Below, piece after piece: positions 4,434-62,026 of a stretch of 64,000 bases of DNA. The stretch is from Proteromonas lacertae (taxonomy: Eukaryota > Sar > Bigyra > Opalinata > Proteromonadidae). A model generated the notes under the pieces. That model worked only from the letters and a program-made list of their open reading frames with translations, searched no databases and was not told where the DNA came from. Position 1 is the first letter of the stretch, and every line of letters begins with the position of its first letter. The stretch lies in contig NGBS01000588.1 in assembly GCA_002245135.1 (NCBI GenBank), positions 62,001 to 126,000 on the forward strand, written 5' to 3'. The position numbers and the translations under genes are program-made.

Positions 4434-5245
4434 TTTACCTATTGGTCATATTTAGATATTATATTATATTATATATACTACCACTGAAATTTAATGCAAA
4501 TCTACTACTCCTTACAAAATTTCTTTGATATATTTTAGTGTGAAAATCATTTACTATATATACATAATAAAACCACTATTTATACACTCTCCAAAAAAAT
4601 CAGCAGCACACTACGAAAATGAGATAATAATATAGATATATACACTTTTTTTCTTTTCTAAATAGTTATATATCGCATATTCATCCATTGATAAGCTAGA
4701 AAATCAGTTTCAAACAATAATAGATTTCAAACCTTTTTAAAGCTTGATACTCTATCTTCTTATTTTTGTTGAGGTTATGATGAAAAAATATCTGCTTTAT
4801 GTGCATTAATTTTATTTCATAGCAAAAAGAAAAAAAGTACCAGCAATTGTGTTTATAATCTAACAAAAAGTGAATATTTAAACAAATGATAATATTAGTG
4901 GAAGATTATAATTGAATCAATATTCTTTTTCTTAGCTTCTTCTATCTTTGCTAGATTATCACCTCTTTCTTGAGGATCTGTTAAACAAAATATTGCATTT
5001 ATGTATATACTAATCAATTATCACACAATATTTATTACACACAAACAATATAACCATTAACACAAACAATAATTTTGGAATATCACTTCTTTCATATAAC
5101 TATGTATTCATGTTCACATTATTCATTATACATCTTCATTTACTTCCATCATTTCTTATTCTTCACTTATTCAATGTAACTGATTTGAATAAAAATGAAA
5201 CGACTCTCCTTTCAGTAATTGTTCCAAAATCAATAATTTGCTTAA
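4434..5245. other. Intergenic, with a gene relic
   Basis: AT-rich and mostly featureless. On the minus strand about 4915-4985 reads DPQERGDNLAKIEEAKKKN, clearly related to DPQERDNYLAKKKK in the coiled-coil gene at 45.8-50.6 kb. It is flanked by stop codons and is probably a fragment of a paralogue. From about 5190 the sequence is the conserved upstream region shared by the BTB/SPRY gene family (compare 52.94-53.01 kb and 39.67-39.74 kb, inverted). Confidence 0.6.
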
Positions 5246-7360
5246 ATGAAAGTAATAGATGACGATATCGGTAGTAGAGGGTATAAATACTAATATTTGA
5301 ATTTATAGATTATGTAGAAAGTTAGTTGATAGTGGTTTTGGTGATGTGAAAGTAAAAATTGGTAATGAAGAAGTTACTTGTGTGAAAAGTATCTTGATGA
5401 CTGGTAATGAGACAATAAAGAAGTTATTGTTAGATGAGCAAATGACAGGAGTATTAGAGTTATATGAAAAATGTGAAATAAACTCATTTTTAGAGATAGA
5501 AAAATACTACAGTGGTGGATGTATGGAAATAAATGAAGATAATATCTGTGATATACTGAGATTCAGTATTTATTACAATGACAATCGAATAATGAAGATA
5601 TGTAAGAAATATTTGAAAAGTCATCTAAATGACATAATAATAATAGAAGTTTGTTCAATGTTAAATGGTTTAAATATCAATAATCTTATTCAATTGAAAT
5701 ACATGAGTGAAAAATACTTGATTGAAAAAGGTTACAAATACTTAACAGAAGGTATAAATAGTAATATAATATGTAATAGATGATTTATTATTAAAACTGA
5801 ATATTGAAAGTTTAAAGTTGATATTATCAAATAAGAAACTGATAATCAAAGATGAGAGTTGGTTATTAAATCGATTATTGAAATGGTATAAGAGTGTATT
5901 AAAAGAAAAAGAATATAATGAAGAAGAAGAAGTAAATGATTTTATTTCACTCTTAAAAACTAAAATTCATTTTGATGAAATAGAATATGAGAATATCGAT
6001 GAAGAATATTTGTTGGAATTAAGTGAATTAAATATCAAAATATCAAATGAGAATAAGAATATTCATATATCAATTAGAATGGATGAAATCAAGAATGAAA
6101 AATTGATAAAAATAATACATGACTATTATATTGAAGAAGAAAAAGAAATGTTATTAAAAGTAAATGAAATAGAAGTGTTGAATGAAACAGAAATAAAAGA
6201 AGATTTAATGAAACTATTGAATAATGAAGATATGAAAATGATAGAAATAGTTTTAAATGTGATAATGGACATGAAATTAAATGAAATAATTCCATATGAA
6301 ATAAAGAATAAGTTGTTAGGAAAACTGTGTTGTGAATATGGAGAATATAAAAGAAATCGAACAATCAAATGTTTATGTTTATTTGTTGATGATAAAAAAT
6401 CAATTTCAACAATAGAATATCTTTGTGGAAAAGAGGTACTTTACAGAATATTGAATGAAGATTATTATCTTAAATCCAAATCGAAAGAGTTATTAATAGA
6501 ATATATAAAAGAAATGAGATTGAATGAGAATGAAGAAGAAGAAATGAGTAAAATAATATTTGATAAAGACTTATTAAAAGAATTAAAAACAAAAGAAATC
6601 ACATCATTTTCATATCCTCAATCAGAGTATTCATTTATATTAGATGAAGAAATGTTAATAATTCCTTCATTTGATGGAAGTGAATGTGAATTTACAATCA
6701 ATCCATCCTTACCTGAAGGAATAATGATAGATAAAGAAAATGGAATAATTCATGGAAAAACTGCTAAAAAATAGAAAAGAGAGAATATGAAATAAGTTGT
6801 AAGAATATTCTAAGTGAAAAGAAATTTAAAATATCATTAGAATTTATAGATGTAAAATTTACAGAATTAAATAAAAATTATTATATTTCAATATCAAATA
6901 ATGGAAAATTAATGAAAAACACAAATGAATATTATCATCATTGCTATTTAAATTTGAAAATGGAAAATGGAGTTTATCATTTCAAATATAAATTTCATCA
7001 AAATAGAAGTGAATATGATGGCATAATTATAGGATTATCAACTGACAATACATATTCTGGTAATGGTATTCATAAACAATCAACAGCATGTAATTATTGG
7101 GCATCTTCAATGGTAAAAGTATAGATATTACTCGAATATTGTCATATTGGAAGAGTTGTTAAATCAAATCCAAATTTCAAAATCATGGAGATGGTTCTAT
7201 TTATGAAGTGATTGTTGATATGAATAAAAGAGAATTTTGGATTAGTCATAATAATTCATCTCCTGTTTTACTTGTTAAAGATTTACCTTCTCCATTATAT
7301 TCATATGCTTCAGTTTATGGAGATAATACATCAATAGAATTATTATCAGTGTCTTATTAA
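5246..7360 (+). pseudogene. BTB - He_PIG - SPRY family protein, copy 1, frameshifted
   Basis: Exon 1 is 5246-5280, intron 1 5281-5308 (28 nt), exon 2 5309-5751, intron 2 5752-5779 (28 nt), then the last exon. An N-terminal BTB domain (DVKVKIGNEEVTCVKSIL) is followed by a helical region, a putative Ig-like He_PIG module (LPEGIMIDKENGIIHGK) and a C-terminal SPRY-like domain (GDGSIYEVIVDMNKREFW). Relative to the intact paralogue at 41.4-43.5 kb, one A is missing near 6770 (stop TAG at 6772) and there are further small indels near 7105-7125 and 7180. The first 145 residues of exon 2 differ from copy 2 at 50.8-52.9 kb at one position only. Either recent decay or uncorrected consensus errors in a near-identical repeat would explain this. 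Confidence 0.75.
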
Positions 7361-7446
7361 GATTAAATATAACTAATTTTATTACTTATTTTATTATTGG
7401 AATGTATTGAAATAAAGAAAATCTAAAAATAAAAAAATATTAAAAA

Positions 7447-26734: not shown

Positions 26735-27467
26735 ATGGGGAAGAATAATATTTTATCATTTAAAATACTAATAGTCGGAGATGTTTCAACTGGGAAGACT
26801 AGCATAGTTAAAAGGTATTTTTAAAAATAATCTTGCTCATTTCAATAGATATGTACATGATTTATACTCAGACCATCACAAGTCTACAATTGGTGTTGAT
26901 TTTGCTTTGAAACAAATCGAATTAGATGGTAATAGCATAAGGTTGCAGTTATGGGATATAGCTGGACAGGATAGATTTGGTTCAATGTCAAGGGTATCTA
27001 ATTTCAATAATTCAATAGGTGTATTACAGAGATGCATGTGGTACTTGTCTTGTATTTGATAAAACAAAGCGAAGCACATTTGAAACAGCAAAGAGATGGA
27101 AGGAAGAACTTGATGAAAAAGTGCAATTACCAAATGGAAAGCCAGTTCCAGTAGTTTTATTAGCTAATAAATGCGATATTGTTGAAGAACAAATATCTGA
27201 TGAAGAAATTGATGAATTTTGTAAAGCTTCTGGATTTGTTGGTTGGTTTTCAGTATAAATTGAATTCTATTGATTTATAGACTTCAGCAAAAGAGAATAT
27301 AAATATTAGCAAATCTATTACAGCACTAGCACAAGCTATTTTGGAATATGTAGATATACTAGATTGTATTAATTGAATAATTTTTATATAAATTAGGTAA
27401 ATCTCCGAATAGTGATATTATTATTGCAGATCCACTACCACAGAATAAATGTTGTTATTCATCTTAG
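26735..27467 (+). CDS. Rab32/38-like small GTPase
   Basis: Five exons (26735-26814, 26849-26993, 27019-27252, 27281-27365, 27397-27467) join to 205 codons including stop, exactly in frame. All G motifs are present: P-loop GDVSTGKTS, switch I with [15 protein letters not shown] (typical of the Rab32 clade, which has IAGQ where most Rabs have TAGQ), NKCD and TSAKEN. The stretch [17 protein letters not shown] is typical of Rab32. The C-terminus NKCCYSS has adjacent cysteines suited to geranylgeranylation. Rab32 proteins act on lysosome-related organelles, autophagosomes or mitochondria; which of these applies here is not visible from sequence. Confidence 0.88.
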
Positions 27468-27752
27468 TAATCAGATATTTATAACACAATTTATTTATGT
27501 AGTTTTTGAAGGAATAACTTTAATATTTTATGTTTCTAGCATTTGAATTGTTTTTTATATTGTTGAAAATGATGTTCAACAGAAAGAATATTCATAATAA
27601 TCATATAATAGTTTGATTATTGTTTGATTGTGTTTTTAAATTTTTCATTTTTTCTACCTTTGTAATGTATATATTTGTAATTAAATATGTTTTGTATAGA
27701 ATTAAGAGAGTAATAAGTGTTATTACGTGATAAATGTAACTAAGAAAGGTAG

Positions 27753-30700
27753 ATGAATAATACTAATGAAACAATAGCAATAGAATATCCCTGTGATACA
27801 AATATATTATATGAAGAAGAGTATTATTTATTTTATATTGCATTTTGATATATGATTAGACTAAAAGGTAAGTATGAGTGTTATAACTGTCGTAATATGT
27901 GTGATTCAATAGGTATAAATATGTAGTTATATATTTTATAGAAAAATGTGATATATGTGGAAATTATTTTTGTTTAATTTGCATTCATATTGAAATTACA
28001 TTTTTGAGTGAATTAAAATACTTTTGTAACATCTGCAGATATTCAATATTATCAAGTATAGGTTATATTCATTTATTGTAGATAATGAGTCATTTCTTTC
28101 GAATATACAGAAAGATGATGTTTACTTCTCTTTATTCTATGGTCAAGGGAAATTAGGTATAAATATATCAATTTCTCCAAATGTTCATCTTCCAGTGCTG
28201 TCCAATGTAAATCATCAAAAGAATTGTAACACCTATAGTTGTATATTCAATCTGTTTGATGATAAAGAGAGTGAAACTATTGTATATTCAATAGAAGAGA
28301 AAAAATGTATGGAAATCACAAAACTCGAAGATTTAAAGAAGATAATAATGAATTGTCAAAAACCTGTTAGAATGACATATTTGAGAAGGAAATTTAATCA
28401 GTATTTATAATATTATCTCATTAATTTATATTGTATATAGCTTATATAACCTTCCATCTGTTTATTATTATTATTATTATGAAGTGAAAATTATTCAATC
28501 ACGTGGATTAATATCGATTGGATTTAAACCAATCATTTACACACAAAATAGTGATGATAATGATAATGATGTAGGATGTATAAAGTATAATTCAATGGGA
28601 GTATTGTATATAAATGGTAAAGAAAAAATAAACTGTGAAATATATAATAATAATGACATAATTGGTTTTGGAGTGAATATGCAGTATTATTTATACTTCA
28701 TCACAAAAAATAATAAATTGATTTATAAAGGAGTATTTCAACCAATTTATAATTCAAAATATAAGCCCTTTATTGATATTCCTGATGAAAAGACAATAGT
28801 TGAGACAAATTATGGAGATAAGCCATTTTTATATAATCCTAATGATGTATATACAATTTTAATCAACTCAAAATATACCCACAATAATGTTGTAAATGAA
28901 AATGAGAATAATTGTAGTTTTATTATAAAAGATGAAAAAATATCTTTAAAACATGTAATTAAAGCAATTGAAGAAAATAAAAGAGAAGAAATATCAAATC
29001 TAACAAATAATAGATGTGTAGAAGTGTTGTTAAAAGAATCAGAAAAACATAAAACCAATGAATATGTATATAGTCTGTATTATAAAGCAATCATATCTTT
29101 TATATCACATTCAACATCATTAAAGTTATTATTATCTGTAGAAGATATTAATTTATTATTAGATGTGATAGTATACGGAATAAAGTATATAATATCAGAA
29201 GAATATTATGTATTCAAAACATTGAAAACACTCAATATAATAACAAGAAATAATTCACTAATAAATGCAAAGTTAGTGTGTAGAATATATCAATTTTTAG
29301 TATATTCTCTACCTTATCTATCTATATGCTACAATCAAAACACATTCAACAGTTGTCTTTTAGAATTGTTTACATTATATCAGTTATACTGTCATAATGA
29401 AAATGATAATTCAAATGTTTTGCTATTTCATTATATATGTAGATCTGATAATATTGAGTTAGTAAATCAGAGTTTAGTGTATTTCAATTCACAAATACAT
29501 TCATATACACTGTTATTTATTGCAAATGATTATGATAATACTGTACTTATTGATGATATATTAAATATAAGTGTAATATCAGATAGTAGAATAAAGAGTG
29601 AGATATTTATATTGTTGGATAATACATTGAATAATTCAAATTGGATAATAAACAGTAGATTGAATAATATCATTAATTTTGCTGTAAATATGATTGAAAG
29701 GGGTATATCTAATGAAATTGAAATATTGTTGAATATTTTACATGGTTCACTGTTGAGAATAAACCAAAGTGAATTATCAGAGGAGATTGTCAAGTGTATG
29801 GTGAATGTAGTTATTGATTGTATTAAAAAAACTGAATATATTTCTCTATCATTTCAAATACTATTATATTTATCATTAAATTATTCTGATGTAAGTGCAA
29901 TCATTATTAATTATGATTATATTTCAGTGATTTGTTCATATCTAAACAATAAAGATATAAACAATATAATCGTATTGCAAATTTTAGTAAATCTAATAGA
30001 AAAATCATCAAATCAACCAGTATTGTTAAAGTCTATAATTCATAATTATAATTATAACAATCTGTATGAAATATTGAAATGCAACTATTCAAATTTAAAG
30101 AATGATGGTATTATTGTTGATATTATGAAGTTTATGAATTATTTATCAACTGAAATCAAATCAATTACAACCAGTAATGTAAAATATGCAATTGAAACTT
30201 ATTATAGCTTATTAGCTGATATTTATAATGATTGTGATGATAGTAATTCAAGATATAAAGATAAAGTTACATTTTATTACCTTCAAATATGTAATGCTGT
30301 TATTAAAGATACACCCTATCGATCGATAGTGATAAATGAATCATTTTTAGATATGTTATTAAGATGTGTTAATAGCAATTCAATACATGTGAAAATTGAA
30401 AAAGTATGTAAAGATATTCTGTCTTCTATCTTTTCCAGTGATGATATTAGATTTGTTATTGATTTATATAATGAAAATAGTTGCAAAGCTGTTTATCTAT
30501 ATTATAAGACAATCACATCACTTCATATTCAAGACTGTATATTTAAGGACAGAAAAAGAACAACACAAAATAATGAATTAATATTGCATTTAATAAACAC
30601 AAACAATAAAACTAACCTATTTCATTTACTAGAAATAACAAATGATGAAGATTTTAATGAAAGTTGTTATTCATCAATCTACACATATATAATTCAACAT

Positions 30701-32931
30701 AAATATCCATCCAATAGTATTTGGGGTATTAAATTATCTGCAATTCTATTAACTCAAACTGAAGTTATTTCGTTTTTGTATAAATTAACACAACAATTTA
30801 AGACTATAAACACTTTAGTATTGAATTGTGAGAATATAAGTGTTGATTCTATAATGAAATTAACAATTATAATACCATTTTCAGTCACAAATATCTTAAT
30901 CAATAAGAGTGAAAATAATGAAATAACAGAGTATATATTAAAGTCAATATATCAAACAGCAATTGTTTCTAATCCAGTTGTTACATTAACAATAACCAAT
31001 TCCAGAATAAATGATAGATGTATTGATATAATATGCCAATATTTATCATTATGTAATGGTTTCAATAAAGGATTGAAATACCTCATTTTATCACACAATA
31101 TTATAGAAGATAATACTTTTATCTGCAAGTTATTTGAAAAAATATTATCAATTGATTGTATAGAGATGTTAGATATAAGTTATAACAATATCAATCTTTC
31201 TTATTCATCATTTCATGATATGATATCAAAATCAAGTCATTTATCGAGTTTAAATATATCAGGTAATAGAATAAAAGATGTAAAAACTATCAAAGAAATA
31301 ATAGGAAAAAATAGTGATAGGATTAATGAAATGAAAGTAGATGATATTATGAGTATTAATAAAGAATTTAAGTTATGGATAAAAGAAAGACTTCAAAATA
31401 ATAAAATAAATATATTACACAATTCTAATCAATTCTTTAATTATAAAACAATTCAATACTCAAATCTTACCAACAGCCAAATGAAAGATAATAAAAAATC
31501 AAATAAAAGAGAATCAGAAAGTAAAAGTAGTAAGAAATGGTCAATTGGGATATTTTTCAGCAGTCCACTAGTATGGAAAGATTCTTCTAATAATTATCAC
31601 AGTTTAGAAGAAATAAACTATACCGAAGAAATACATACACTTTATAAAACAATAAAAGAGAATAACAAATCAATAAAAGTGTTGTATGATTATATAGGAG
31701 TTGATAAATTAAGAAGTTATTTAACAACAGAAAATTGTCATATACTTCACTTAAGTTTTCATTGTTCAAAACAGAATATATTTCTAGAAGATAATTCTTT
31801 AGGATTAAACTCAGTCGCATTATCAGATTTTGCAAAGTTTTTCAAACCAGAAATAGATAATAAAAAGATATATTTGATATTTCTAAGTGCTTGTAATAGT
31901 AAAGAATTAGGATTAAAGTTGATTAATATTGGAATACCATTTGTTATTTGTGTTGATGATGATAAATTTGTTGTTGATAAAGCTGCTATAAAGTTCACAA
32001 AATACTTATATCAAGCATTGTTTAATAACAAATACTCTATTTATGATGCTTATAACATTGCCTCTTCTGTTCAAAAGAGTAGTTTTATTATTCTTTCTGA
32101 AAGTTATTTATTCTCTGTAACATTGTTCTCAAGATTGTGTTATAATAATACAGATGAAAAAGATGGTGAAAGTGAGGAAGATGATGATATAATGAATGAA
32201 AATTTTAACACATTCATTCCTTCAATACCAGAGTTTTTTGTTGATAGAAATATTGATATTTATAAAATCTTCAACTCATGTGTAAGTAGAAAATTAACTA
32301 TAGTTGATGGAGAAAAAGGTGTTGGTAAAAGTAGTATTTGTTATAAGGTATATAAGAAAATAAAAGAAAGAAAATTATTGGATGGAAATATTTATTATAT
32401 TGATTTAATGAATATAAGAAATATGAATGATATTATTAGTAAAATGGTAAAACAGATGAATTATCATTCATTACTAATGAAATCTCATGTTGTGACTGTT
32501 AACGAGTTGTTAATACAGTTGAAAGATAAAGATCAGTTAATTTTTCTTGATAATTTGAATGAGGAAGTTATTAATGATGTTATATCCTTTGTTCAGAGTA
32601 TTGTATCTTTTACAAATAACGTTCATGTATTGTTAACATTAAGAAGAAGAATAAATATGACATTTGTAGGTTGCATTTCCAATTATATTACTGTTTTACC
32701 ATTAGATAAAGAATCTGTTGCTAAATTGATTATATTGGCATTAGAGCAATCATATGATCAAGAGTTGTTATTGAAATTAAGAGAATCTATTCAAAACTCC
32801 AAATTATTTGATGAATTAGAAGGCAATCCTAGTATATTTCATTTAATATATTATGAATAGGAAAGGTGATTGATTTTGTTCAAACATTAACTAAAGAGAA
32901 AATAGACAGTATCATCGATATAATAAAGTGA
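27753..32931 (+). CDS. Zinc finger - helical repeat - LRR - CHAT protease - NB-ARC protein
   Basis: Six exons (27753-27820, 27860-27912, 27942-28055, 28082-28400, 28441-32831, 32861-32931) join to 1672 codons, exactly in frame. Residues 30-72 hold four CxxC pairs (Cys30/33, 43/46, 51/54, 69/72), a cross-brace finger of RING/FYVE type. About 200-970 is helical, ARM-like. About 975-1150 has LRR units (YLILSHNIIED, EMLDISYNNI, SLNISGNRI). About 1225-1400 is a CHAT caspase-like domain with the His motif LHLSFHC (His1292) and the Cys motif IFLSACNS (Cys1336). About 1450-1671 is a STAND NTPase: Walker A GEKGVGKSS (Lys1481), Walker B LIFLDN (Asp1555), VLLTLRRR, LPLDKES, and a GLPL-like EGNPRKV. The domain set resembles an NLR-type sensor-protease. 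Confidence 0.85.
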
Positions 32932-34844: not shown

Positions 34845-37550
34845 CTGGGTTCGATAAAGGGCGTCCTTTTCGAATTTTGCCCTATTTTTGCCCCTTTTTT
34901 TTCAGCTGAAAAGAAGCCTGCCCCTTACTGCTCGGGCATAGTAATATTACCATGTGTTATGCTGTAGTATATTTTTTCTGATTTTTTGTTATAACTTTTC
35001 CATATTATCATCTAGATATACTAACATATGTTAAAAAGGATATATTATTGTGTATTATAGCATAATAGTCATCTACTTTTCTTATGATTATATAATATCA
35101 TATGTTTATGCATATATACTAATTATATAGAATATACATACTGTATATCATATTCTGATATGCATATATATACATTATGTACATTTCAAGGTGATTGACG
35201 TCACTGAACATAAATGAAATTTATATAATAAATAATTTTGTATATTACACATATATCATATAGATAATTAAGAAGTATAGCTATAGAATGGGTATTTTCA
35301 GTTAATTGATAATCAATAGTACTTGTTATGATAATAACATAATATATTTCATAAACTAATAGAAAAACTATTTCAAAATTACTATTTAGTATATTTTGCA
35401 TACTACTTAATGTATTTCAAGCAATTATTTGAATACTTAGAAAATGGTTTGAGAATTTCGAGCTATCATTTTGCATTTCAATTGTATATGGGTAAAACGA
35501 GAGATGCTGTGTATAGATACTTTAATGAAGATGTGGTGTTAAAGAAACCCCTTGAAAAATACAACAGAATTCAATGCAGAAGGTGCAAGGCAATGATTAT
35601 TGCTCATTGCACTAATTTGAAACGTCATTACAAAAAGTATAAATATATTTATTATATTTATTAAATTAGATGTAGTGAAAAGCTAATCCAATCAAAACTT
35701 ACATAATTGAGATATGATGAACGTGCAATAAACTTAATGGTGACCAAATATCTTATAGAAAATAACTTAGCTTTCAGAACCATACAATCTAAATCCTTTA
35801 AAAATCTAATATATACATTAAATCCAACTACAAAGTCAATAACAATAAACAAAATAAAAGCATCAATGAACGAAGAAGCAGAAAGAATAGTAAAGGAAAT
35901 TGTAGATAACAGTAAAATATGTATAATTGTGGACGCTTGGAAATCAGTAACCAATGAAAACGTTATTAATTTGGCAATAAAGAAAAGCAGTGATATTTCG
36001 TTTTTGGAATCCATTTATTTACATAAACGAGAAACATCAGAAAATATAGTGGAATTAATAATTCAAACATTAGTGAAGTATAAACTAGATATTAAAAACA
36101 TTGTTGCTGTGAGTAGTGATAACAACTACACCATGAAAAAGATAAGTAGTATTTTAGAGAAAAAAATAAATAGACCTGTAGTAAAGTTTGGATGTTTAGC
36201 ACACATCCTAAACTTAATCAGTAAAAAAGTATTCGAAATAGAGAAATACAAAAAAGTGATAGTCATGTGTAATGACATTATTCATAAGTTAAATAATAAT
36301 CAAAAGATTAGAGAAACTATATATTCAATTATACAAAAAAAATATCCAAATACGCAAGGGTTGTGATACGAGATGGTCAAGCTATAGCGATGTATTTAGA
36401 AAAATATTACTCAATAAAGAAATTTTATTACAGATAAAATTATTAAAGGAAGAAGATATACAAGAAATTAAAGAATGCTACAAGATTGCAAAATATATTT
36501 CCACAAATATACACTTATTATGCAAAGATTCATCTACATTAAATGATGGTTTCAGAATATTGACCAAAATTAAAAGAAAGTTAATGAAAAGGTCATCAAG
36601 TGAAAAAGAACTTATTAAAGACATTATAAAAAAAGAGACTAGACATGCAAACTACAGCATTTTAGCTCTATATGAATTTTTAGACATAAACAGTAAACAT
36701 AAATTTTCAGACATGGAGAAGGATAATATAAAAAGATATATATTATCTAAATTCAGCCCTATTTTAAATCAGAAAGCATTAAATGAGATTTATCATTTTG
36801 AAAGAAGAAAACCATACTGCAAAAAGTGCCCTTCAGATATATTTTCGAAAAAGATATCAACTAATATATGGTACAATATGTATGGAGTTTTTTACCCAAA
36901 TGTTAAGAAGCTATATGATATTCTTTCAACTATTCCTGTCACAAGCTCATTTATTGAACGTTCATTTAGTATTGAGGGAATAGTTCATAATCATATTAGA
37001 AATAAATTACAGCTTAATACTATAAATAATATTTTAAGAATAAAATATGATTTATTAAAAGAAAAAAACAAAGAAAAAGATATAAATGAAGATGATAATG
37101 ATATTAGTGAAGAAGAATATAATTTAGATGTGCTGAATGAAATTGATAACAATATAGTATATGACACTTTAGATTATCAATGTTCTGGTGATGAAGATGA
37201 AAGTTCTGGTAGTTCTAGCGATGAAGGTTTAAGTGATGAAAGTTCTAGTGATGAAGGTTTTAGTGATGAAGGATCTCAAAGCCCTTACTTTTAAGGCTAT
37301 TATTATAATGAAATATTATTGTTTGTTATTGTTATAAGATAATAATACATAATTATGAAAAGAATAAATATTTTTATAGCGTTTAATATCCCTAAAATCG
37401 CACAAAATATAAAAATTCAAATAAAATAATTGAAAAGGGCAAATTGTACCCTTTTCTATTTTTAGATAGTATAAAGGACGCCCCTTTCAATTTTTGCCCG
37501 GGACATGCCCTTGTCCCGCCACTGCCCTGTCCCTTTATTATTCAACCCAG
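34845..37550 (+). mobile_element. hAT-superfamily DNA transposon, 2706 bp
   Basis: Bounded by perfect 8-bp direct repeats CTATTGAT and by short imperfect terminal inverted repeats: CTGGGTTCGATAAAGGG at 34845-34861 against CTGGGTTGAATAATAAAGGG read inward from 37550. A subterminal ~28-bp motif (TAAAGGGCGTCC, then TTGCCC) occurs in direct orientation at 34855-34882 and 37472-37499, as expected for transposase-binding sites. The interior encodes a hAT transposase on the plus strand. The insertion lies exactly at the stop codon of the minus-strand BTB/SPRY gene at 37.5-39.7 kb; the TAG stop falls inside the duplicated target and so survives. Confidence 0.92.
35410..37294 (+). pseudogene. hAT transposase (BED finger, RNase-H-like core, dimerisation domain), two lesions
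   Basis: An N-terminal BED-type finger (CRRCKAMIIAHCTNLKRH) is in exon 1. After a 33-nt intron (35637-35669) comes an in-frame TAA (35704-35706), then the catalytic-core sequence with IIVDAWKSV and VSSDNNYTM, CDTRWSSYSDV after a one-base shift in an A8 run (about 36340), and the C-terminal hAT dimerisation block TSSFIERSFSIEG, then NKLQLNTIN. The end is serine/acidic repeats (SSSDEG). Apart from those two lesions the gene is full length, so the copy is young. It cuts and pastes the element in its active form. Confidence 0.85.
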
Positions 37551-37558
37551 CTATTGAT
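37551..37558 (+). repeat. Target-site duplication of the hAT element, right
   Basis: CTATTGAT directly after the terminal repeat ending CAACCCAG. It also contains the stop codon of the neighbouring minus-strand gene. Confidence 0.92.
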
Positions 37559-39666
37559 TAGTAGAAGATAATAATTCGAATGATGAATTTTTTGCACCTA
37601 ACGCCGCATATGCATATAATGGAGAAGGTAAATCTTTAACAAGTAAAACAGGAGATGAATTATTATGACTAATCCAAAATTCTCTTTTATTCATATCAAC
37701 AATCACTTCATAAATTGAACCATCTCCATGATTGAAATTTGGATTTGAAGTAACAATTGTTCCAATAAAACACCATTCAGGAACAACATAGCTTTTACCA
37801 AAAAAAGCAACATAATTACATGTTGTTGATTGTTCATGAATATCATCTCCAGAATATGTATTTTCAGTTGATAATCCTAATATAATATCATCATATTCTC
37901 CTTGATGGTATTTATACTTGATATGATAAACATCATTCTCTAATTTTTGACTTATATAACAATGATGATTATCATTATCTGTATTGGTTATTAATTTTCC
38001 ATCATTTAATATTGTTATTCCATTGCTTTTATTTAATACTGTGAATTTAACATCAACAAATTCTAATGATATTTTTGTTGTCTTTTCACTCTTTTTGTTT
38101 CTACACACTATTTCATATTCTTTACTCTCCATCAGAATTTTCACTTTTCCATGAATTATTCCGCTTTCTTTATCTATTATTATCCCTTCAGGTAAAACAG
38201 GAAAAATAAAAAATTCACAATATGTTCCATCACATGAAGGAATTATTGAAATTTCTTCATTCATTCCAAATAAATAGTGTGTTTGAGTGTAAGAAAATGA
38301 AGTGACTAATCTAAATGTTAATACTTCTAATAATGATTTATCGTAAATAATCTTACTCATTTCTTTTTCTTCATTTCTATTCAAATTCATTTCTTTTATA
38401 TATTCGATTAATAACTCTTTTGATTTGAAATTTATATAACATTCATTGTTTAATATCCTGTAAAGAATTTCTTTTCCACATAATCCTTCCATAATAATTA
38501 TATCCTTTTTATTATCAACAAACAAATACAGACATTTTAAAGTTCTGTTTCTTTTACTTTTATTATATTCACAACATATTTTCCCCAACAATTTATTCTT
38601 CTCTTCATTAGGTACTATTTCTGATATTTTCATTATTAATATCATATTTAGGACTATTTCTACTAGTTTAATATCTTCATTATATATTAGTTTTATTAAA
38701 TCTTTTTGAACTTCGTTTTTGTTTAATACTTGTATTTCATTGTCTCTTAATTCCATTTCACTTTCTTCATCCATATAATAATCATGAACTAGATCAATTA
38801 AGTCTTTATTATATATTTCATCAATATTTGTTATACATATATAATCACTTTTCTCACTTATTATTTCTATATTTAATTCCTTCAATTCATCCTTTACATC
38901 ATTCTCAGCTTGAATTTCATTGAAATGGATTTTGCTTTTCAATAGAGTTATGAACTCATCAATATCTTCTTCATTATCTTCTTTTTCTTTTAATACATTC
39001 TTATACCAAAACATTAATCGATTTAATAACCAACTCTCATCTTTGATTATTAATTTCTTATTTGATAATATCAATTTTATTGATTTTATATTCAGTTTCA
39101 ATAATAATTCATCTATTTAAATATTAATATATTGTTAATAACATATATTCATACCATTATTCAAATAGTCAAATCCATTCAATCGAATATTTTCTTCACT
39201 GAATCGCTTAAATTCATTCAACATATCATTTTTTATATTCATATTATAAAGTATATCGAATATTTCAATCATTATTGAATTGTTTAGATGATTCTTTAAA
39301 TATTTCTCACAAATTCTCATTATTCGATTATCATTGTAATAAATACTGAATCTCAATATATCACAAACATTATCTTCATTTAATTCCATACATCCACCAC
39401 TGTAGAATTTCTCTATCTCTAAAAATGAATTTATTTCACATTTTTCATATAACTCCAATACTCCTGTCATTTGCTCATCAAGCAATAACTTCTTTATTGT
39501 GTCATTTCCATTCATCAATATACTTTTCATACTCATTATTATCTCACTTTGGATTTTTATCTTCACATCACCAAAACCATTATTCACAAGTATTCGACTT
39601 AATCTATAAAATCAAATATTAGTATTTATACCCTCTACTACCGATTTCATTATCAATTACTTTCAT
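37551..39666 (-). CDS. BTB - He_PIG - SPRY family protein, copy 3, intact
   Basis: Exons 39632-39666, 39155-39603 and 37551-39112 join to 682 codons including stop, exactly in frame (introns 28 and 42 nt). BTB near residues 15-120 (DVKIKIQSEIIMSMKSIL), then BACK-like helices (KDESWLLNRLMFWYK) and an acidic helical stretch. A putative Ig-like He_PIG module follows (LPEGIIIDKESGIIHGKV) and then the C-terminal SPRY-like domain (DIILGLSTENTYSGDD, GDGSIYEVIVDMNKREFWI, SPLYAYAALG). SPRY domains usually recognise a short peptide partner, and BTB-BACK suits cullin-3 adaptor use; this is inference. The upstream region shares a ~60-bp block with copies 1 and 2. Confidence 0.82.
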
Positions 39667-40075
39667 TTCAGCAAATTATTGATTTTGGAACACTTATTGA
39701 AAAGAATTCGTTTCATTTCTATTCAAATCAGTTACATTGAATAAAAGAAGAATGAGAAATGATATAACTAAATGGTGCTATAAAATTTATAGAGTTAGCA
39801 TTTATTGTGAAACTGAAATTGGTGTTGAATGATTGTTAATTGTTGTAATACCATAGATATGAAAATAAAGTAGAATTATTACTAGTTTCATTATTTACAT
39901 AATATTTTTTATAGAATAATATAAAAAATAATATGATGACTTAAGTGCAACAGAAAATTTGATCAAATTGATAATATTATGAATAAGTTTCTATTAAAAG
40001 GAAAGTTTAATATTGAATGAATTAATATGTAGAGTAATTCAAAATAATAAAATGTAATTAATTATATAAATCACA
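39667..40075. other. Upstream region of copy 3 plus UGP relic
   Basis: 39667-39740 is the family's conserved 5' block (TTGATTTTGGAACACTTATTGAAAAG). About 39975-40055 is a decayed copy of an internal piece of UGP: GAATTAATATGTAGAGTAAT, followed by TCAAAATAATAAAATG, aligns with UGP about 34205-34293. Confidence 0.55.
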
Positions 40076-40710
40076 ACCCTCTTTGACTAACACCTTTAGC
40101 AAAGCATGAGTAAATAGTAGCACTTATTAATAATATAGCTGCTGCTATTCTAAATACAATATTCCACTATTCAATATAAATAAAATCTATAAATAAAAAT
40201 ACTTGCATTGAGGTAGGTTTTTTCCCAATTATATAGGATGTTAGAATTGAAGATATCATTCCAGGTAATGTTCCAACTGTATTTGCTATTCCCATTATTA
40301 TTCCAGAATAATGAGGAATATATCCATCATATTAGCACCAATCACTGTCAAAGTTATTCCTGTTGATCTTACTGCGAATGACATTAATATAATCATTATT
40401 ATGACATTACCAGACAATGAAGCAGCCATTAATGCAGCACCTGCCATTACATTTCCTAATATAACAAAGAATATTCTTATTGTTACTATCTTATATTTGC
40501 CAGATTCTATTATACAATCTAAAAATTCCATTTATATATGTTGGTAAGTAAGTCATCATAGTATACCATGCCCAATTTACTCCACCAAGCAATTGAACTC
40601 TAGAATAAGAATATATAAATAATTGAAAGAATACAATGATAAAACTCCTGAATTTGATAATACAGATGCTAAAAACACACCCAATCCAAATGCTGGAGTT
40701 ATTTATCAAG
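40076..40710 (-). pseudogene. SLC17-type (sialin/vesicular anion) transporter fragment
   Basis: Read on the minus strand, the last part gives GIANTVGTLPGMISSILTSY, IIGKKPTSMQ, a ~37-nt intron, then WNIVFRIAAAILLISATIYS, which matches the C-terminal third of SLC17 major-facilitator transporters. Further upstream VNWAWYTMMTYLPTYI matches the family's WGFYTLLTWLPTY-type segment. The piece between them (40298-40531) is hydrophobic but out of frame with its neighbours, and the N-terminal half is missing. It is a broken gene copy. Confidence 0.68.
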
Positions 40711-40929
40711 AAAATTCTTTCAATAACAAAAGTATCAAGAAGATATATCGTACTCGTGTCCTGGACATGTCTCGAACATGTCCCGAATGTTTCACAAACA
40801 AATCACATCACTTTTTATTTTGATTTTTATAAAAGTGAGAATCAAGCCTTGAATATATGTAAAAATAAATTATACACAATACCAATAAAAATGTAAATGT
40901 TTAAATATTCATATTATATAACTTTATTG

Positions 40930-41130
40930 ATGAGATACTGATAATAATTCAAATGAAGTGCTTTTACCACCTAACTCAGCATAAGGATATAATGGAGAAG
41001 GCAAATCTTTAACAAGTAAAACAGGAGATGAATTATTATGACTAATCCAAAATTCTCTTTTATTCATATCAATAATCACTTCATAAATTGAACCATCTCC
41101 ATGATTATTGAAATTTGGATTTGATTTAAT
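40930..41130 (-). pseudogene. Solo 3' end of a BTB/SPRY gene
   Basis: The minus strand reads the last ~60 codons of the SPRY-like domain (GDGSIYEVIIDMNKREFWI, SSPVLLVKDLPSPLYPYAEL), nearly identical to the intact copies, and then stops abruptly at about 41,130 where kinase sequence on the other strand begins. No BTB part is nearby. It is a truncated duplicate. Confidence 0.78.
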
Positions 41131-41347
41131 AAATAAGCTGTTAGTATTAGATGGAAATAATCGGTTAAGTGCGAGTGAATGTTTAAGACATAAATGGTTT
41201 GAAAAAGTATTAAAAGCAAGTGATTTAAAAGAGTTAGAAATACCAAGTAGTGGAGGTCATGAGTTAGAAACAAAACAATTTCGTCGAAAGAGAAATGAAT
41301 CTAATTCAATTCCTAAATCAATGAATGTAAATAAGAATATAAAATAA
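41120..41347 (+). pseudogene. Protein kinase C-terminal fragment
   Basis: The frame reads DLINKLLVLDGNNRLSASEC, LRHKWFEKVLKASDL, the typical subdomain XI (NRLSASE, then HKWF) of serine/threonine kinases, followed by a basic tail ending at TAA 41345-41347. No catalytic loop or P-loop precedes it; the sequence on its left is the SPRY relic in opposite orientation. It is a fragment of a duplicated kinase gene. Confidence 0.7.
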
Positions 41348-41386
41348 TTTAAAATGTTATTAATTATTATTTTCATTTTATATATT

Positions 41387-43510
41387 TTATTGGTAATGAG
41401 AAACTGATAATAACTCAATTGAAGCTTCTAAAATGGATAATACAACATAGGGATATAATGGAGAAGGTAAATCTTTAACAAGTAAAACAGGAGATGAATT
41501 ATTATGACTTATCCAAAATTCTCTTTTATTCATATCAACAATCACTTCATAAATTGAACCATCTCCATGATTATTGAAATTTGGATTTTTATTAACAACT
41601 CTTCCAATATGACAATCATCAGTTATATCTTGACTTTTACCATAAGATGCATAATAATTACATGTTGTTAACTCATAATAAACACAATAACCAGAATATG
41701 TATTATTAGTTGATAATCCTAACATCATACTATCATATTTACTTCCATTTTGATGAAATTTATATTTGATATGATAAACTCCATTTTCCATTTTCAAATT
41801 TAAATAACAATGATTCCAACCATCATTTGTGTTTGTTATTAATTTTCCATTATTTGATATTGATATTTCATCACTTTTGTTTAATTCTGTAAATTTTACA
41901 TCAACAAATTCTAATGATATTTTGAATTTCTTTTCACTTAGAATATTCTTACATATTATTTCATATTCTCTCTTTTCAATTTCTTTATTCACTTTTCCAT
42001 TAATTATTCCATTTTCTTTATTTATCATTAAACCATCTGGCAATGAAGGATTGATTGAAAATTCACATCGATTTCCATCAAATAAAGGAATTATTGGCAT
42101 TTCTTCATTTACCATTAATAAATATTCTGATTGAAGATATGAAAATGATGTGATTTCTTTTGTTTTTAATTCTTTCAATAATTCTTTATCTTTCAATATT
42201 TCTATCATTTCTTCTTCTTCTTCGAAACTCAGTTTATTCTCTTTTATATATTCTATTAATATTTCTTTAGATTTGGAGTTTAAATAATTATCTTCATTCA
42301 ATATTCTAAAAAGAATATCTTTTCCACATACTTCTTCTATTATTGAAATATTCTTTTTATCATCAACAAATAAACATAAACATTTCATTGTTCGATTTCT
42401 TTTATTCTCATTATATTCCATACATAATCTATCCAATAGATTTCTTTTTTCTGTATTTGAGATATATTCTATTTAAATATATTTTTAGTATTTATACTTT
42501 CCTTTTTCATATTTTTATATTTCATTATCATCAATACTATTTCACTCATTTTTATGTTCTTCATTTCTAATATACACATTATTTCATCATTCAATTCTTC
42601 TTCTTTCATCTTATCCAATATTCTTCTTTCTTCTTCATTAAATACTTCTTCATCTTTATCTTCATTGTAATTGTTGATTATTACATTTTGAATTCTCTCA
42701 TCTTTTATTAAATATAATTCTATATGATTTTTACATTCATTTTTCTTTAATTCTATTTTCATTTCTTTCAACATTTCTTTATTCTCTTTTTCTATCTCTT
42801 TCTCTTTTATCTTTTCACCATCGATATCTTCTTCTATCAAATGTTTAAAATCATCTTTAATCTCTTCATTATCTTTCTTATTCTTTTGGAATTTATACCA
42901 TTCTAATAACCGATTTAATAACCAACTCTCACTTCGAATTATCACATCTTTCATATTTAATATCTCAATCAAATTATTCATTTCTAATCTCAACAAATAT
43001 TCATTCTTATATAAATATTTATATCCTCGCTTTTCTATTTCCATATTTTTCAAGTCTTCTATCTCTCTCAAACATCCACCAAATACATTACAGATATGAA
43101 TTAATTTCATTAACACTTCATCATCTATATTATTCTTCACAAATTCATAACAATCATTTATTATCTCTTTTTCACAATAACATAAACAAAACATCAACAC
43201 TTCACACACATTCTCTTTACATATTATTAATTCACCACCACTGTAGTATTTCTCCATCTCATAATAGCCAATTTCTTCGATTTCTTCATATAATTCTAAA
43301 ACTCCAACAAACTCACGATCTAACAACAGTTTCTTTACAGTCTTATTTCCATTCACTAAAATTGACCTGATTGACATTATTCGATTATCTCCAATCTTCA
43401 CTTCTATATCAACAAAACCACTTTCAACCAATTTTCGACATAATCTATCATAAAAATAAATACAAAATATACCCATCTTCTCTTATGCTTTTATTCACTT
43501 TTATTATCAT
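41387..43510 (-). CDS. BTB - He_PIG - SPRY family protein, copy 4, intact
   Basis: Exons 43473-43510, 42498-43444 and 41387-42468 join to 689 codons including stop, exactly in frame. BTB (DIEVKIGDNRIMSIRSIL), BACK-like helices, a long Glu/Lys-rich helical stretch (residues about 215-290), a He_PIG module (LPDGLMINKENGIINGKV) and SPRY (YDSMMLGLSTNNTYSGYC, GDGSIYEVIVDMNKREFWI). It is the most diverged of the four. The intron found after the BTB-BACK region in the other copies is absent, and a different 29-nt intron (42469-42497) interrupts the middle of the protein. Confidence 0.82.
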
Positions 43511-50810: not shown

Positions 50811-52942
50811 TTAATCTTCATAAGAAACTGATAATAATTCTATTGATGTATTATCTCCATAAACTGAAGCATATGGTATATAATGGAGAAGGTAAATCTT
50901 TAACAAGTAAAACAGGAGATGAATCATTATGACTAATCCAAAATTCTCTTTTATTCATATCAACAATCACTTCATAAATTGAACCATCTCCTATGATTAT
51001 TGAAATTTGGATTTTTTATTAACAACTGCTTCCAATATGACAAATATCGAGTAATATCTCATACTTTTACCATGAAGATGCCAGGATAATTACATGCTGT
51101 TGATTGATTTATGAAATATCCATCTACCGGAATATGTATTATCAGTTGATAATCCTATAATTATGCCATCATATTTACTTCTATTTCGATGAAATTTATA
51201 TTTCATATGATAAACTCCATTTTCCATTTTCAAATTCAAATAACAATGATGATAACTATTCATTTGTGTTTGTTCATTAATTTTCCATTATTTGATATTG
51301 AATATTCCATAACTTTTGATTTAATTCTGTAAATTTTACATCTATAAATTCTAATGATATTTTGAATTTCTTTTCACTTAGAATATTCTTACAACTTATT
51401 TCATATTCTCTATTTTCGATTTCTTCAGCAGTTTTCCATGAATTATTCCATTTTCTTTATCTATCATTATTCCTTCAGGTAAGGATGGATTGATTGTAAA
51501 TTCACATTCACTTCCATCAAATGAAGGAATTATCGAGCATTTCTTCATCTAATATAAATGAATATTCTGATTGAGGATATGAAAATGATGTGATTTCTTT
51601 TGTTTTTAATTCTTCTAATAAGTCTTTATCAAATATTATTCTACTCATTTCTTCTTCTTCATTCTCATTCAATCTCATTTCTTTTATATATTCTATTAAT
51701 CTTCGATTTGGATTTAAGATAATAATCTTCATTCAATATTCTGTAAAAGTACCTCTTTTCCACATAGATATTCTATTGTTGAAATTGATTTTTTATCATC
51801 AACAAATAAACATAAACATTTGATTGTTCGATTTCTTTTATATTCTCCATATTCACAACACAGTTTTCCTAACAACTTATTCTTTATTTCATATGGAATT
51901 ATTTCATTTAATTTCATTTCCATTATCACATTTAAAACTATTTCTATCATTTTCATATCTTCATTATTCAATAGTTTCATTAAATCTTCTTTTATTTCTG
52001 TTTTATTCAACACTTCTATTTCATTTACTTTTAATAACATTTCTTTTTCTTCTTCAATATAATAGTCATGTATTATTTTTATCAATTTTTCATTCTTGAT
52101 TTCATCCATTCTAATTGATATATGAATATTCTTATTCTCATTTGATATTTTGATATTTAATTCACTTAATTCCAACAAATATTCTTCATCGATATTCTCA
52201 TATTCTATTTCATCAAAATGAATTTTAGTTTTTAAGAGTGAAATAAAATCATTTACTTCTTCTTCTTCATTATATTCTTTTTCTTTTAATACATTCTTAT
52301 ACCATTTCAATAATCGATTTAATAACCAACTCTCATCTTTGATTATCAGTTTCTTATTTGATAATATCAATTTTAAACTTTCAATATTCAGTTTTAATAA
52401 TAAATCATCTATTACATATTATATTACTATTTATACCTTCTGTTAAGTATTTGTAACCTTTTTCAATCAAGTATTTTTCACTCATGTATTTCAATTGAAT
52501 AAGATTATTGATATTTAAACCATTTAACATTGAACAAACTTCTATTATTATTATGTCATTTAGATGACTTTTCAAATATTTCTTACATATCTTCATTATT
52601 CGATTGTCATTGTAATAAATACTGAATCTCAATATATCGCAGATATTATCTTCATTTATTTCCATATATCCACCACTGTAGTATTTCTCTATCTCTAAAA
52701 ATGAATTTATTTCACATTTTTCATATAACTCTAATACTCCTGTCATTTGCTCATCTAACAATAACTTCTTTATTGTCTCATTACCAGTCATCAAGATACT
52801 TTTCACACAAGTAACTTCTTCATTACCAATTTTTACTTTCACATCACCAAAACCACTATCAACTAACTTTCTACATAATCTATAAATTCAAATATTAGTA
52901 TTTATACCCTCTACTACCGATATCGTCATCTATTACTTTCAT
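50811..52942 (-). pseudogene. BTB - He_PIG - SPRY family protein, copy 2, decayed
   Basis: Inverted near-copy of 5246-7360. Exon 1 is 52908-52942. The BTB exon (52405-52842 and flanks) and the helical exon (51740-52370) are open and almost identical to copy 1, including both 28-nt introns. From about 51,730 to 50,811 there are many single-base insertions and deletions, for example in the strings around 51,430, 51,535, 51,060, 51,000 and 50,875, so the He_PIG and SPRY parts are out of frame. Copy 1 is damaged in the corresponding region but at different bases. Confidence 0.8.
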
Positions 52943-53274
52943 TTAAGCAAATTATTGATTTTGGAACAATTACTGAAAGGAGAGTCGTTTCATTTCATTT
53001 CTCTTCAATTTATTGGTTAATTTCATTTATTTTCATAAACCAAGTTAAAATCATAGTTTTATGTCCTCAAGCGTTTCTCACAAACATAAATCTAGTATAA
53101 TTAGTGTTTTTATGTTTTATAGAACATCATTCTTCTCGATCGAGTTACAATAAAGGAATGTATAAATAAAATCCATTTTCTATATGTAGTGAAGAACACC
53201 GTCTCATTTATACAAAAAACAGGGTTGTAGAACCTCCCTGTCCCGAAGTTGATGATGGTTCACCTTTAATAGAT
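52943..53274. other. Intergenic, shared 5' block of the BTB/SPRY family
   Basis: 52943-53010 mirrors 5190-5245 (inverted). The rest is AT-rich. The frame of the ankyrin gene is open upstream to about 53,172, with an acceptor-like ATATGTAG at about 53,183-53,190, so an extra 5' exon is possible. Confidence 0.5.
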
Positions 53275-54532: not shown

Positions 54533-55681
54533 TTAATTTAAATCAAAATAATCTATTTGACAAGAGCATATGGATAAGGAACCTATTTTATTTAAAGAAT
54601 GTCCTAATGAGATATATCCAACTGACTTTAGATAATGTGGTTTGTCTTTATCTCCATTATTATTTTTTTGAAAATTTGAAAATGAAGTAAAACATGTAGA
54701 ACTACTTCTTTTCGAATATCCAAATCTCTTTTTAATTTGATACAACACATTGATCCTTGCTTTATTGGGAATTGTGTCAATACAGAAGTCGTAGTGATAT
54801 GGAGATGGTTTATTCCTAAACAGTACTCTATTGCATTTCTTAAAACAATTTTCTTTATTTGGAGGTTTTAAAATCGCATCAGATAATGTAAAAGTTGAAT
54901 TAGCTACAGACATAATATTTATAACGAAATTATAATAGTTCTTTCTTGTTATGATATTTTTATAAGTTTCATTATCAAATATACATGTTTTAATATCTTT
55001 TTTTAAGTTATGAATGCAAGACAAGTATTGATTACTATTTCTTACAAAATTCGTAAATACTTTAAGATCATAAACATCAGACACAGAACTATTAATGATA
55101 ATAATTCAATATACTCTAAATTCAACATAAGTTCAGCAAATTGAGTTTCTTTATAGCCAAAATAATATATAAATCGATTTGCTTGCTCTTTAGTAATTAT
55201 TAAATTGCTTGCAACACCATACATGGATAATAGTACTGATAGAATATCATCGGTATTGTAGAACAGAAAAAAACATGCAAACAACACAAATTCATTACAA
55301 CTGACTACCTTATCAGTAAAAAAATACCTAATAAATCCTCTGTTTTCTGGTTCAAAGTATAGTTCTAAATCTGCTTTTAATATACTGCATTTTTCTGGAT
55401 GTTTGTTCCACACACAAAGATACGAACTGATTATTGTATTAACTTCATAGTTATTTACTATTAATTTGTATGATTTCGGAAAATAGTATACAAAATAACG
55501 TTTTACATACAGATAACGCCAGATGCGTCACTGGTAAATAAAGTTCTTGATTTAGTTTTTGTTTCTTTGAAAGATCAAATGCTTTTCTCTACAGAGAGTA
55601 TAAAAATAAAATAAAATATACATAGTCACAATTAACAGGCTCTAATATTATTCTTGAATTTATGGGTGTAATTATAGACAT
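54533..55681 (-). CDS. Tandem family protein A (unknown family)
   Basis: Exons 55622-55681, 55492-55588, 55115-55457 and 54533-55088 join to 352 codons including stop, exactly in frame (introns 33, 34 and 26 nt). Conserved blocks shared by the array: an N-terminal MS(L/I)ITP peptide, KV/RIAYDLL, NNYEVNTI, then ESYFEPENRGFIRYFF, S-CN-FVLF-CFFLFYNTDDILSVLL, a C-terminal block with CFKKCNRVLF and PSPYHYDFCIDT, and FGYSKRSSSTCFTSF. The central part has the rhythm of a helix-loop-helix pair, perhaps a very degenerate EF-hand, but with no calcium loop. No signal peptide. Function unknown. Confidence 0.75.
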
Positions 55682-60864: not shown

Positions 60865-62026
60865 TTACTTACTATAAACAGACGGATGTGGATTTATTTT
60901 ATTTGCAGTAGTAGTTCCAATCGATAAGTGTCTAGTGTTAGTGGTAGATTGTTTTTCTTTATCAGATTTTTGAGATTTCTTTTTTTCTGGATATGTTGAT
61001 GTAGAAGATGATATAAAACGAGTGGAACTACTTCTTTTGGAATAACCAAATCTTTGCTTTATTTGATATAAAACATTTATTCTTGAGTTACAAGGATATG
61101 AATCAATGCGAAAATTGTAATGATATGGAGGTGGATTATTTGTGAATAACATTCTCATACATTTTTCACAGCAATTTTCATTATGTGGTTCTGATAACTG
61201 TAAATCAGCAATATTCAGATTTGGATTTTCTCTCATCATACTTGTTATTAGATAATTGTAATAATCTCTTCTAGAAATTATATTTCTAATTTTTACATTA
61301 TCAAATGTATATTTTTTAATATTTAATTTTAGATTGTGAATAGTTATTAAACATTTATGACAGTCTCTCATATAACTTATAAATAATTTAATATCATATA
61401 CACCAGATGGAGTACTATAAATGTATATAACAAATATACAATATACTCTGGAGAAGATATCGAATTATTCTCTAAATAGGTAAAAAGATCAGTAAAGCTA
61501 CTATTAAATCCAAAATTACTTAAAAATCTGTTCACCTGGTCTTTTGTTATCATTAAATTACTAGATACACCACACATCGCAATCATTACAGACAAAATGT
61601 CATCAGTATTATAGAAAAGGAAAAAACACACAAACAACACAAAATCATTACAACTAATGGTATCTTCAGTAAAATAATATCTAATGAATCCCTTATTTTC
61701 TAACTCAAAATAAGATTCCATGTCACTTTTAGATATATGGTTTTTTTCATCGTCATTACTCCATAAAGCAAAATATGCGCTGACTATTGTGTTTACTTCA
61801 TAGTTATTTACTAAACAATTATATATCAAGAAATATAACATACAAAACAGAGTTTTACACATAGCCACCGTATTTTGTGTCATTGGAAAATATACATCTT
61901 CATTAATATTTTTGCTTCGAAGTAAATTGTAAGCTATCTTCTAAAAAATATATATTATGATGATACATAGTCAGAACTTGCAGGTTCTATTGCAGATCTT
62001 GAATTTATTGGAGTTATAATTGACAT
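60865..62026 (-). CDS. Tandem family protein E
   Basis: Start ATG 62026 (MSIITPINSRSAIEPASSDY). Central block ESYFELENKGFIRYYFTEDT and FYNTDDILSVMIAM; last exon with CCEKCMRMLF, PPPYHYNFRIDS and FGYSKRSSSTRFISS. It differs from other members in having Arg where the conserved Cys of FCID stands. The tail is rich in Ser/Lys and ends PHPSVYSK. Confidence 0.72.

Follow-up and report, generated by a model that had tools for sequence, protein, structure and literature searches.

Does the gene at positions 27753–32931 of the 64,000-nucleotide stretch of contig NGBS01000588.1 analysed here (the window) encode an immune receptor that kills the cell, or a regulated protease with some other task? An earlier note on this DNA, made from the letters alone, had read the locus as an NLR-like protein joining a zinc finger, leucine-rich repeats (LRRs), a CHAT protease and an NB-ARC NTPase, and had seen in it a candidate innate immune or self/non-self death switch of a protist. 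We arrive at a revised predicted order of parts: CxxC finger, a weak PDZ-like segment, SPRY domain, armadillo-type repeats, LRRs, CHAT domain and an NB-ARC-like NTPase. The gene product is probably a caspase-like protease controlled by nucleoside triphosphate and carried on a long recognition scaffold, a reading to which we give an even chance.

As judged by the predicted splice model, the six exons of the gene (Table 1) encode one large protein. The five introns are 26–40 bases long, each of the form gtat...tag, and their removal yields one 1671-residue frame with its stop at 32931; this frame had been claimed in the earlier note, and it was confirmed by splicing and, for the later joins, by two related proteins, P0002 and P0001. 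The orthologue P0002 is a single open reading frame (ORF) of 1721 residues with the identical parts in the identical order. It can be aligned across the exon 3/4, 4/5 and 5/6 joins, which rules out a chance joining of frames, and P0001 apparently runs into intron 5 at the equivalent place. Because P0002 starts within the finger, no other protein backs the exon 1/2 join, and the stretch where exons 2 and 3 meet matches P0002 poorly. Since residues 186–1648 lie in one exon and P0002 is one open frame along nearly the entire protein, the region is unlikely to comprise several genes. A fusion of two neighbouring genes by a mistaken splice model, which the very short introns and the predicted nature of the model might suggest, is for the same reasons extremely improbable: the stretch from SPRY to NTPase is already a single exon, and only exons 1–4 and 6 are doubtful.

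Searching with the whole protein at E 0.001, with the 8000 candidates sharing most words scored, returned P0001 as the sole match, while the C-terminal piece, used as a short-protein query, matched none of 5024 candidates under a search length limit that excludes P0001 too. When residues 1200–1640 were searched within the full length at E values up to 10, five proteins were found: P0001 (70% identity) and P0002 (46%), both from source lgn, P0003 (source ena; 27%, E 2.7e-7), the Euplotes protein P0004 (25%, E 2.2e-5) and, at E 1.6, P0005, which carries BTAD, NB-ARC and TPR by Pfam and was left out of the later comparisons apart from one profile match. A plasmid search gave four Rhizobium records, matching the NTPase part only, and no match to viral contigs was confirmed. 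PADLOC run on the long ORF reported no families, and all NCBIfam matches fell far under their cut-offs, the best being that of the NTPase piece to an anti-phage protein, at 20.6 bits of a required 790. A single-sequence search of the PDB gave two chance-level matches.

Residues 1213–1418 are assigned, by profile and by the His/Cys pair, to a predicted CHAT protease domain. A profile built from three sequences (window protein, P0001, P0002) matched PDB entry 8tl0 at E 1.6e-5 (28.2 bits) with the CHAT part only, the next match being chance-like (0.06). The same three-sequence profile scored P0003 at 44.1 bits and P0004 at 24.7 bits and gave no match to P0005; adding P0003 and P0004 to it brings 8tl0 to 4.7e-11, an improvement that is partly by construction. 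The earlier note had expected a match to Pfam CHAT (PF12770): the lineage profile, through 8tl0 and P0003, agrees with the assignment, while Pfam itself stays below its cut-off of 24 bits (17.1 on the piece, 14.3 on the long ORF), and a genome search with PF12770 lists only another protein, L001, and not this gene. His1292, Cys1336 and Lys1481 are located at the positions given in that note, and its CHAT domain with both catalytic motifs holds, the presumed catalytic His and Cys being present in all three orthologues; in the wider alignment the Cys is found in five of the five proteins and the His in four of five, namely those that reach it. L001 (G000:C176), a long open frame, matches CHAT in part, at 24.6 bits and so barely above the cut-off of 24; in our own reading it looks CFAP46-like, which would suggest flagella.

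Among the parts measured, the predicted CHAT domain is the most conserved and slowest-evolving, with 84% identity to P0001 and 63% to P0002. The corresponding values are 61% and 34% for the NTPase, 60% and 29% for the LRR region, and 50% and 27% for the helical region at residues 471–945. P0001 sets in only around window-protein residue 463 and covers neither the SPRY domain (46% identity to P0002) nor the PDZ-like part. This pattern bears on the possibility that the CHAT or the NTPase part is a pseudo-enzyme serving binding only, which we regard as improbable: the weak Pfam scores would agree with it, as would the stretch around His1292, which departs from what we take to be the common GHG, but the His, Cys, Lys and Asp are kept in three of three orthologues and CHAT is the part that has changed least.

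Behind CHAT, the C-terminal module carries the marks of a P-loop NTPase. In addition to the Walker motifs listed in Table 1, residues G1475, G1480, K1481, S1482, D1555 and N1647 are conserved in P0001 and P0002, and a GNP motif is present in all three orthologues, in the same columns as the GNP of P0004. The best Pfam family is NB-ARC, with 27.0 bits on the isolated piece (cut-off 23.5) and 27.2 in the genome search; on the long ORF it scores 22.4 bits, which is under the cut-off. The pair of CHAT and P-loop NTPase looks like a reused module, since the two also stand side by side in P0003, as do a CHAT-like segment and such an NTPase in the Euplotes protein P0004. Several observations weigh against so simple an assignment. 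On the isolated piece, AAA_14 (25.3 bits) and AAA_22 (23.7 bits) follow close behind NB-ARC, and a five-sequence profile run against the PDB reached an AAA+ protein, pachytene checkpoint protein 2 (4.9e-4), ahead of an NLR (0.37). Known STAND switches lock through a winged helix, and no winged helix follows the NTPase core: only 23 residues remain after GNP here and 26 in P0002, a C-terminal remainder that is too short. The NTPase has also changed more than CHAT. Two other points count against the reading as a nucleotide-controlled protease: an AlphaFold2 model of the CHAT–NTPase half, made from two sequences, is poor (mean pLDDT, the model's own confidence score, 39), and Pfam lists no CHAT for P0004. 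Of the STAND/NB-ARC module proposed in the earlier note, the NTPase with its Walker motifs and the NB-ARC match on the piece hold; with AAA families near and the winged helix missing, the STAND assignment appears less clear than the NB-ARC score alone suggests.

Part of the scaffold in front of the protease is, as the model suggests, helical. AlphaFold2 was run on residues 186–1179 with three sequences (mean pLDDT 59.4), giving helices with block-mean pLDDT of 58–88 over residues 566–845 and lower values before. Foldseek with this model found a designed armadillo protein (1.1e-6) and beta-catenin (1.5e-5), and 34 of the best 50 matches are named armadillo-type proteins (designed armadillo, beta-catenin, plakoglobin, importin-alpha and Vac8, the last four of which we take to belong to this class); the rest are five chains of the engineered 4rv1 and 11 others including NLRC4, NLRP3 and LRRK2. 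The helical region of the model resembles armadillo repeats, with TM-scores by query length of 0.15–0.30 that speak to fold class only; no Pfam family matches it. The LRRs that had been proposed from the letters were borne out by a profile match to a ribonuclease-inhibitor-like protein in the PDB (6.2e-6). The model contains nine strands 27–32 residues apart in this region, the first two of low confidence, and Pfam LRR_4 is reached at 0.0015, under its cut-off. Counting LRR motifs gave three in the window protein, a number reached by 338 of 5000 shuffles and not significant for this protein alone, and six in P0002, reached by 43 of 5000 shuffles.

The finger, the helical repeats, the LRRs, CHAT and the NTPase had all been recognised before; the SPRY domain at residues 187–318 and the weak PDZ-like segment at residues 96–182 had been overlooked. 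In Pfam, SPRY scores 1.9e-4 (22.0 bits) here and 1.6e-5 (25.5 bits) in P0002, both below the cut-off of 26.3 bits, and a genome search with PF00622 did not list this gene. A joint profile of the window protein and P0002, run against the PDB, reaches SPRY structures at 1.2e-9, with RanBP9/10 at 3.6e-7 to 4.8e-5; over this domain the confidence of the AlphaFold2 model is low. Genome-wide there are 38 SPRY matches, 36 of them above the cut-off and some apparently alleles of each other, and several sit in open frames of more than 2000 residues. The PDZ-like segment is a lead only: residues 85–182 are 40% identical to P0002, PDZ_6 appears weakly and in P0002 only (E 0.16), the best Pfam match of the segment in the window protein is APD1-4_M (19.1 bits, cut-off 25), and a profile search of the PDB with this segment found no PDZ. 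For the finger, P0002, which starts inside it, retains three CxxC pairs. The spacing is presumably FYVE-like; no FYVE-, RING- or PHD-type Pfam family matches the finger, which is recognised by CxxC spacing only.

Table 1. Predicted features of the gene, in positions of the window
Feature	Residues	Positions	Strand	Basis or remark
Whole gene, six exons	1671 residues	27753-27820, 27860-27912, 27942-28055, 28082-28400, 28441-32831, 32861-32931	+	
CxxC finger-like segment	29-73	27876..28039	+	four CxxC pairs; intron 2 interrupts
PDZ-like segment (lead only)	96-182	28132..28392	+	noticed by eye
SPRY domain	187-318	28445..28840	+	joint profile vs PDB 1.2e-9
Helical repeats, armadillo-type	about 330-912	28874..30622	+	AlphaFold2 and Foldseek
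Ribonuclease-inhibitor-type LRRs	about 943-1170	30713..31396	+	profile vs PDB 6.2e-6
CHAT cysteine protease domain	1213-1418	31523..32140	+	profile matches, conservation
Presumed catalytic His codon	1292	31760..31762	+	kept in P0001, P0002, P0003
Presumed catalytic Cys codon	1336	31892..31894	+	kept in P0001, P0002, P0003, P0004
NB-ARC-like P-loop NTPase, to stop	1448-1671	32228..32931	+	intron 5 (32832-32860) interrupts
Walker A	1475-1482	32309..32332	+	G..G.GKSS invariant in 5/5 aligned proteins
Walker B	1551-1555	32537..32551	+	D1555 kept in 5/5

The eukaryotic assembly that contains the window comprises 50.2 Mb in 1181 contigs. At BLAST level the gene is single copy: a genome search with the 1458-residue ORF found no paralogue at E 0.001, the two matches among 11 candidates being the two copies of the gene itself. 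The region also has a counterpart on contig C524 (18180 bases), which matches it along two long pieces (99.2 and 99.7%); the copy there shows two differences from the window gene in 5179 bases, N485S and L714I, both in the helical repeats, and C524 is taken as the other allele.

We propose the following scheme. The SPRY domain, armadillo-type repeats, LRRs and finger in front would likely form the recognition and scaffold part, and the protease would be kept inactive in cis. Once the scaffold has bound a partner and the NTPase its nucleotide, CHAT domains would be brought together or freed, and the activated CHAT would then cleave a cellular substrate, with cell death, defence or plain regulated proteolysis as candidate outcomes.

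Such a machine could be an intracellular immune or allorecognition receptor, with LRR, SPRY and armadillo parts sensing an invader or non-self and CHAT executing death, for example by cutting a pore former. The LRRs do resemble those of animal NLRs when profiled against the PDB (5irl, which we take to be NOD2, at 2.5e-5; NLRP3 at 0.017–0.062), and the scaffold diverges faster than CHAT. There is also a fungal precedent: published work describes CHAT-bearing NLRs (PMC12881547), connects CHAT proteins of fungi with the activation of gasdermins and with cell death (PMC12881547, PMC10197012) and reports an Aspergillus fumigatus incompatibility locus of which one allele is a CHAT protein (PMC11138114). 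Against an immune role stand the single copy and the two alleles, whose two differences in 5179 bases give no sign of balancing selection, two haplotypes being few for such a judgement. Nor did PF04598, a model that may miss non-animal gasdermins, find a match in the genome, and a Pfam scan of 10 of the 29 ORFs in the window showed no gasdermin. Because the organism is probably non-opisthokont, the gene single copy, the alleles nearly monomorphic and PF04598 without a match, a direct transfer of the fungal death role is weakened. The EF-1A of this genome does not carry the insertion that marks opisthokonts, which speaks against a fungal origin; Pelomyxa was set aside as the source on the weak ground that the single Fe-hydrogenase locus has, in our reading, a Nar1-like look. 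The death switch of the earlier note is thereby left as a possible, unproved role, and one that we consider rather doubtful. A metacaspase-type match is present in the genome at one locus and apparently at its allele.

Alternatively, the protein may be a housekeeping protease of some cell-biological process, with the NTPase as an assembly part, which we entertain as a tentative possibility. Separase, a widespread protein, likewise combines a helical scaffold with a caspase-fold domain. The single copy, the presence of the gene in two further sources and the strong constraint on CHAT are in keeping with such a task, as is L001, which is likewise large, matches CHAT in part and looks CFAP46-like to us. 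However, the sole named relative at E values up to 10 comes from Euplotes, which is a narrower distribution than that of separase, although eukaryotes may be thinly represented in the collections that were searched. Returning to the NTP-controlled protease on a recognition scaffold, a single-copy regulatory role would fit it at least as well as that of a polymorphic immune receptor.

With somewhat less than even confidence, we further suggest that the gene represents a conserved, single-copy class of protist switch-proteases, in which finger, PDZ-like, SPRY, armadillo and LRR parts precede CHAT and a minimal NB-ARC-like NTPase without winged helix comes last: a caspase-like death or signalling switch whose parts are of NLR type but whose order is independent of that in the NLRs of animals, plants and fungi. 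If the proposed mechanism is true, a protist, probably a non-opisthokont, has combined LRR recognition with a caspase-like effector and an NTPase of STAND type in a non-NLR order, and selection guards the protease most, not the sensor. It would also provide a testable protein for asking whether such regulated proteolytic switches are older than multicellularity.

The G+C content of the window is 23–33% in 2-kb stretches. A Ras-like gene lies upstream (about 27000–27470), with introns that by eye look similarly short, and, also by eye, about 250 bases separate the stop of our gene from the first ATG of the next, a later ORF of which encodes a UTP-glucose-1-phosphate uridylyltransferase. Pieces of a hAT-type transposase follow downstream of the uridylyltransferase gene at 35707–37294 (+), with DUF659 at 9.1e-13 and the hAT dimerisation region at 1.3e-7. 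A repeated gene family is found at 37551–43476 (−), about 5137–7384 (+) and 50830–52999 (−), with DNA pieces 78–92% alike, BTB and BACK matches in two of four scanned ORFs and, by eye, a beta-rich, SPRY-like end. Finally, three ORFs of 168–183 residues look related by eye (54533–55084, 60865–61371 and 62500–63018, (−)); the latter two each adjoin a second repeated ORF (61377–61883 and 63029–63481), one of which was scanned and matched no Pfam family.

How, then, does the protein compare with known systems? A claim that the joining of CHAT and STAND in a eukaryotic protein is undescribed would be too strong, being preceded by the fungal CHAT NLRs (PMC12881547) and by the deposited Euplotes crassus protein P0004. 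P0004 (1470 residues, unnamed product) resembles the window protein in that a CHAT-like segment with the Cys is followed by a NACHT-type NTPase (4.4e-5), but its record starts inside CHAT and about 1180 residues come after the NTPase match. P0003 (1134 residues) likewise has CHAT (46.9 bits) with a P-loop NTPase behind it, close to the C-terminus; by Pfam this NTPase is sigma-54/AAA-like rather than NB-ARC, and no LRR or SPRY is listed. The arrangement of armadillo, LRR and SPRY parts ahead of CHAT with the NTPase last was not found among the open-licence papers listed, a limited negative that takes in the conflict-system papers PMC8195603 and PMC10907252.

The fungal CHAT NLRs and CHAT-repeat proteases share with our protein a CHAT effector joined to NLR or repeat parts and are linked to regulated cell death (PMC12881547, PMC10197012, PMC11138114); the fungal order given in the second of them, effector, NOD and C-terminal repeats, differs from ours. 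The label 'NLR-like' thus keeps its parts and loses its order. With LRRs before the effector and 23 residues past GNP, too few for a winged helix, the protein is by its sequence not an NLR in the strict sense, canonical membership is ruled out, and the term is an analogy only. NLRC4, NLRP3 and LRRK2, the Foldseek neighbours of residues 186–1179, are alike in fold class only (TM-scores 0.08–0.24) and have other enzyme parts in another order. SAVED-CHAT is said to be activated by ligand-driven stacking. This protein of type III CRISPR systems, the source of 8tl0, has the CHAT protease domain in common with ours, whereas its sensor is SAVED and it has no NTPase match (PMC11417357). Animal TPR-CHAT proteins (TTC28 and coral expansions) place helical repeats N-terminal to a single CHAT, as here, with TPR instead of armadillo repeats and LRRs and with no NTPase in the architecture as described (PMC12314368). 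The component parts are known, and their predicted order is unlike that of known immune receptors.

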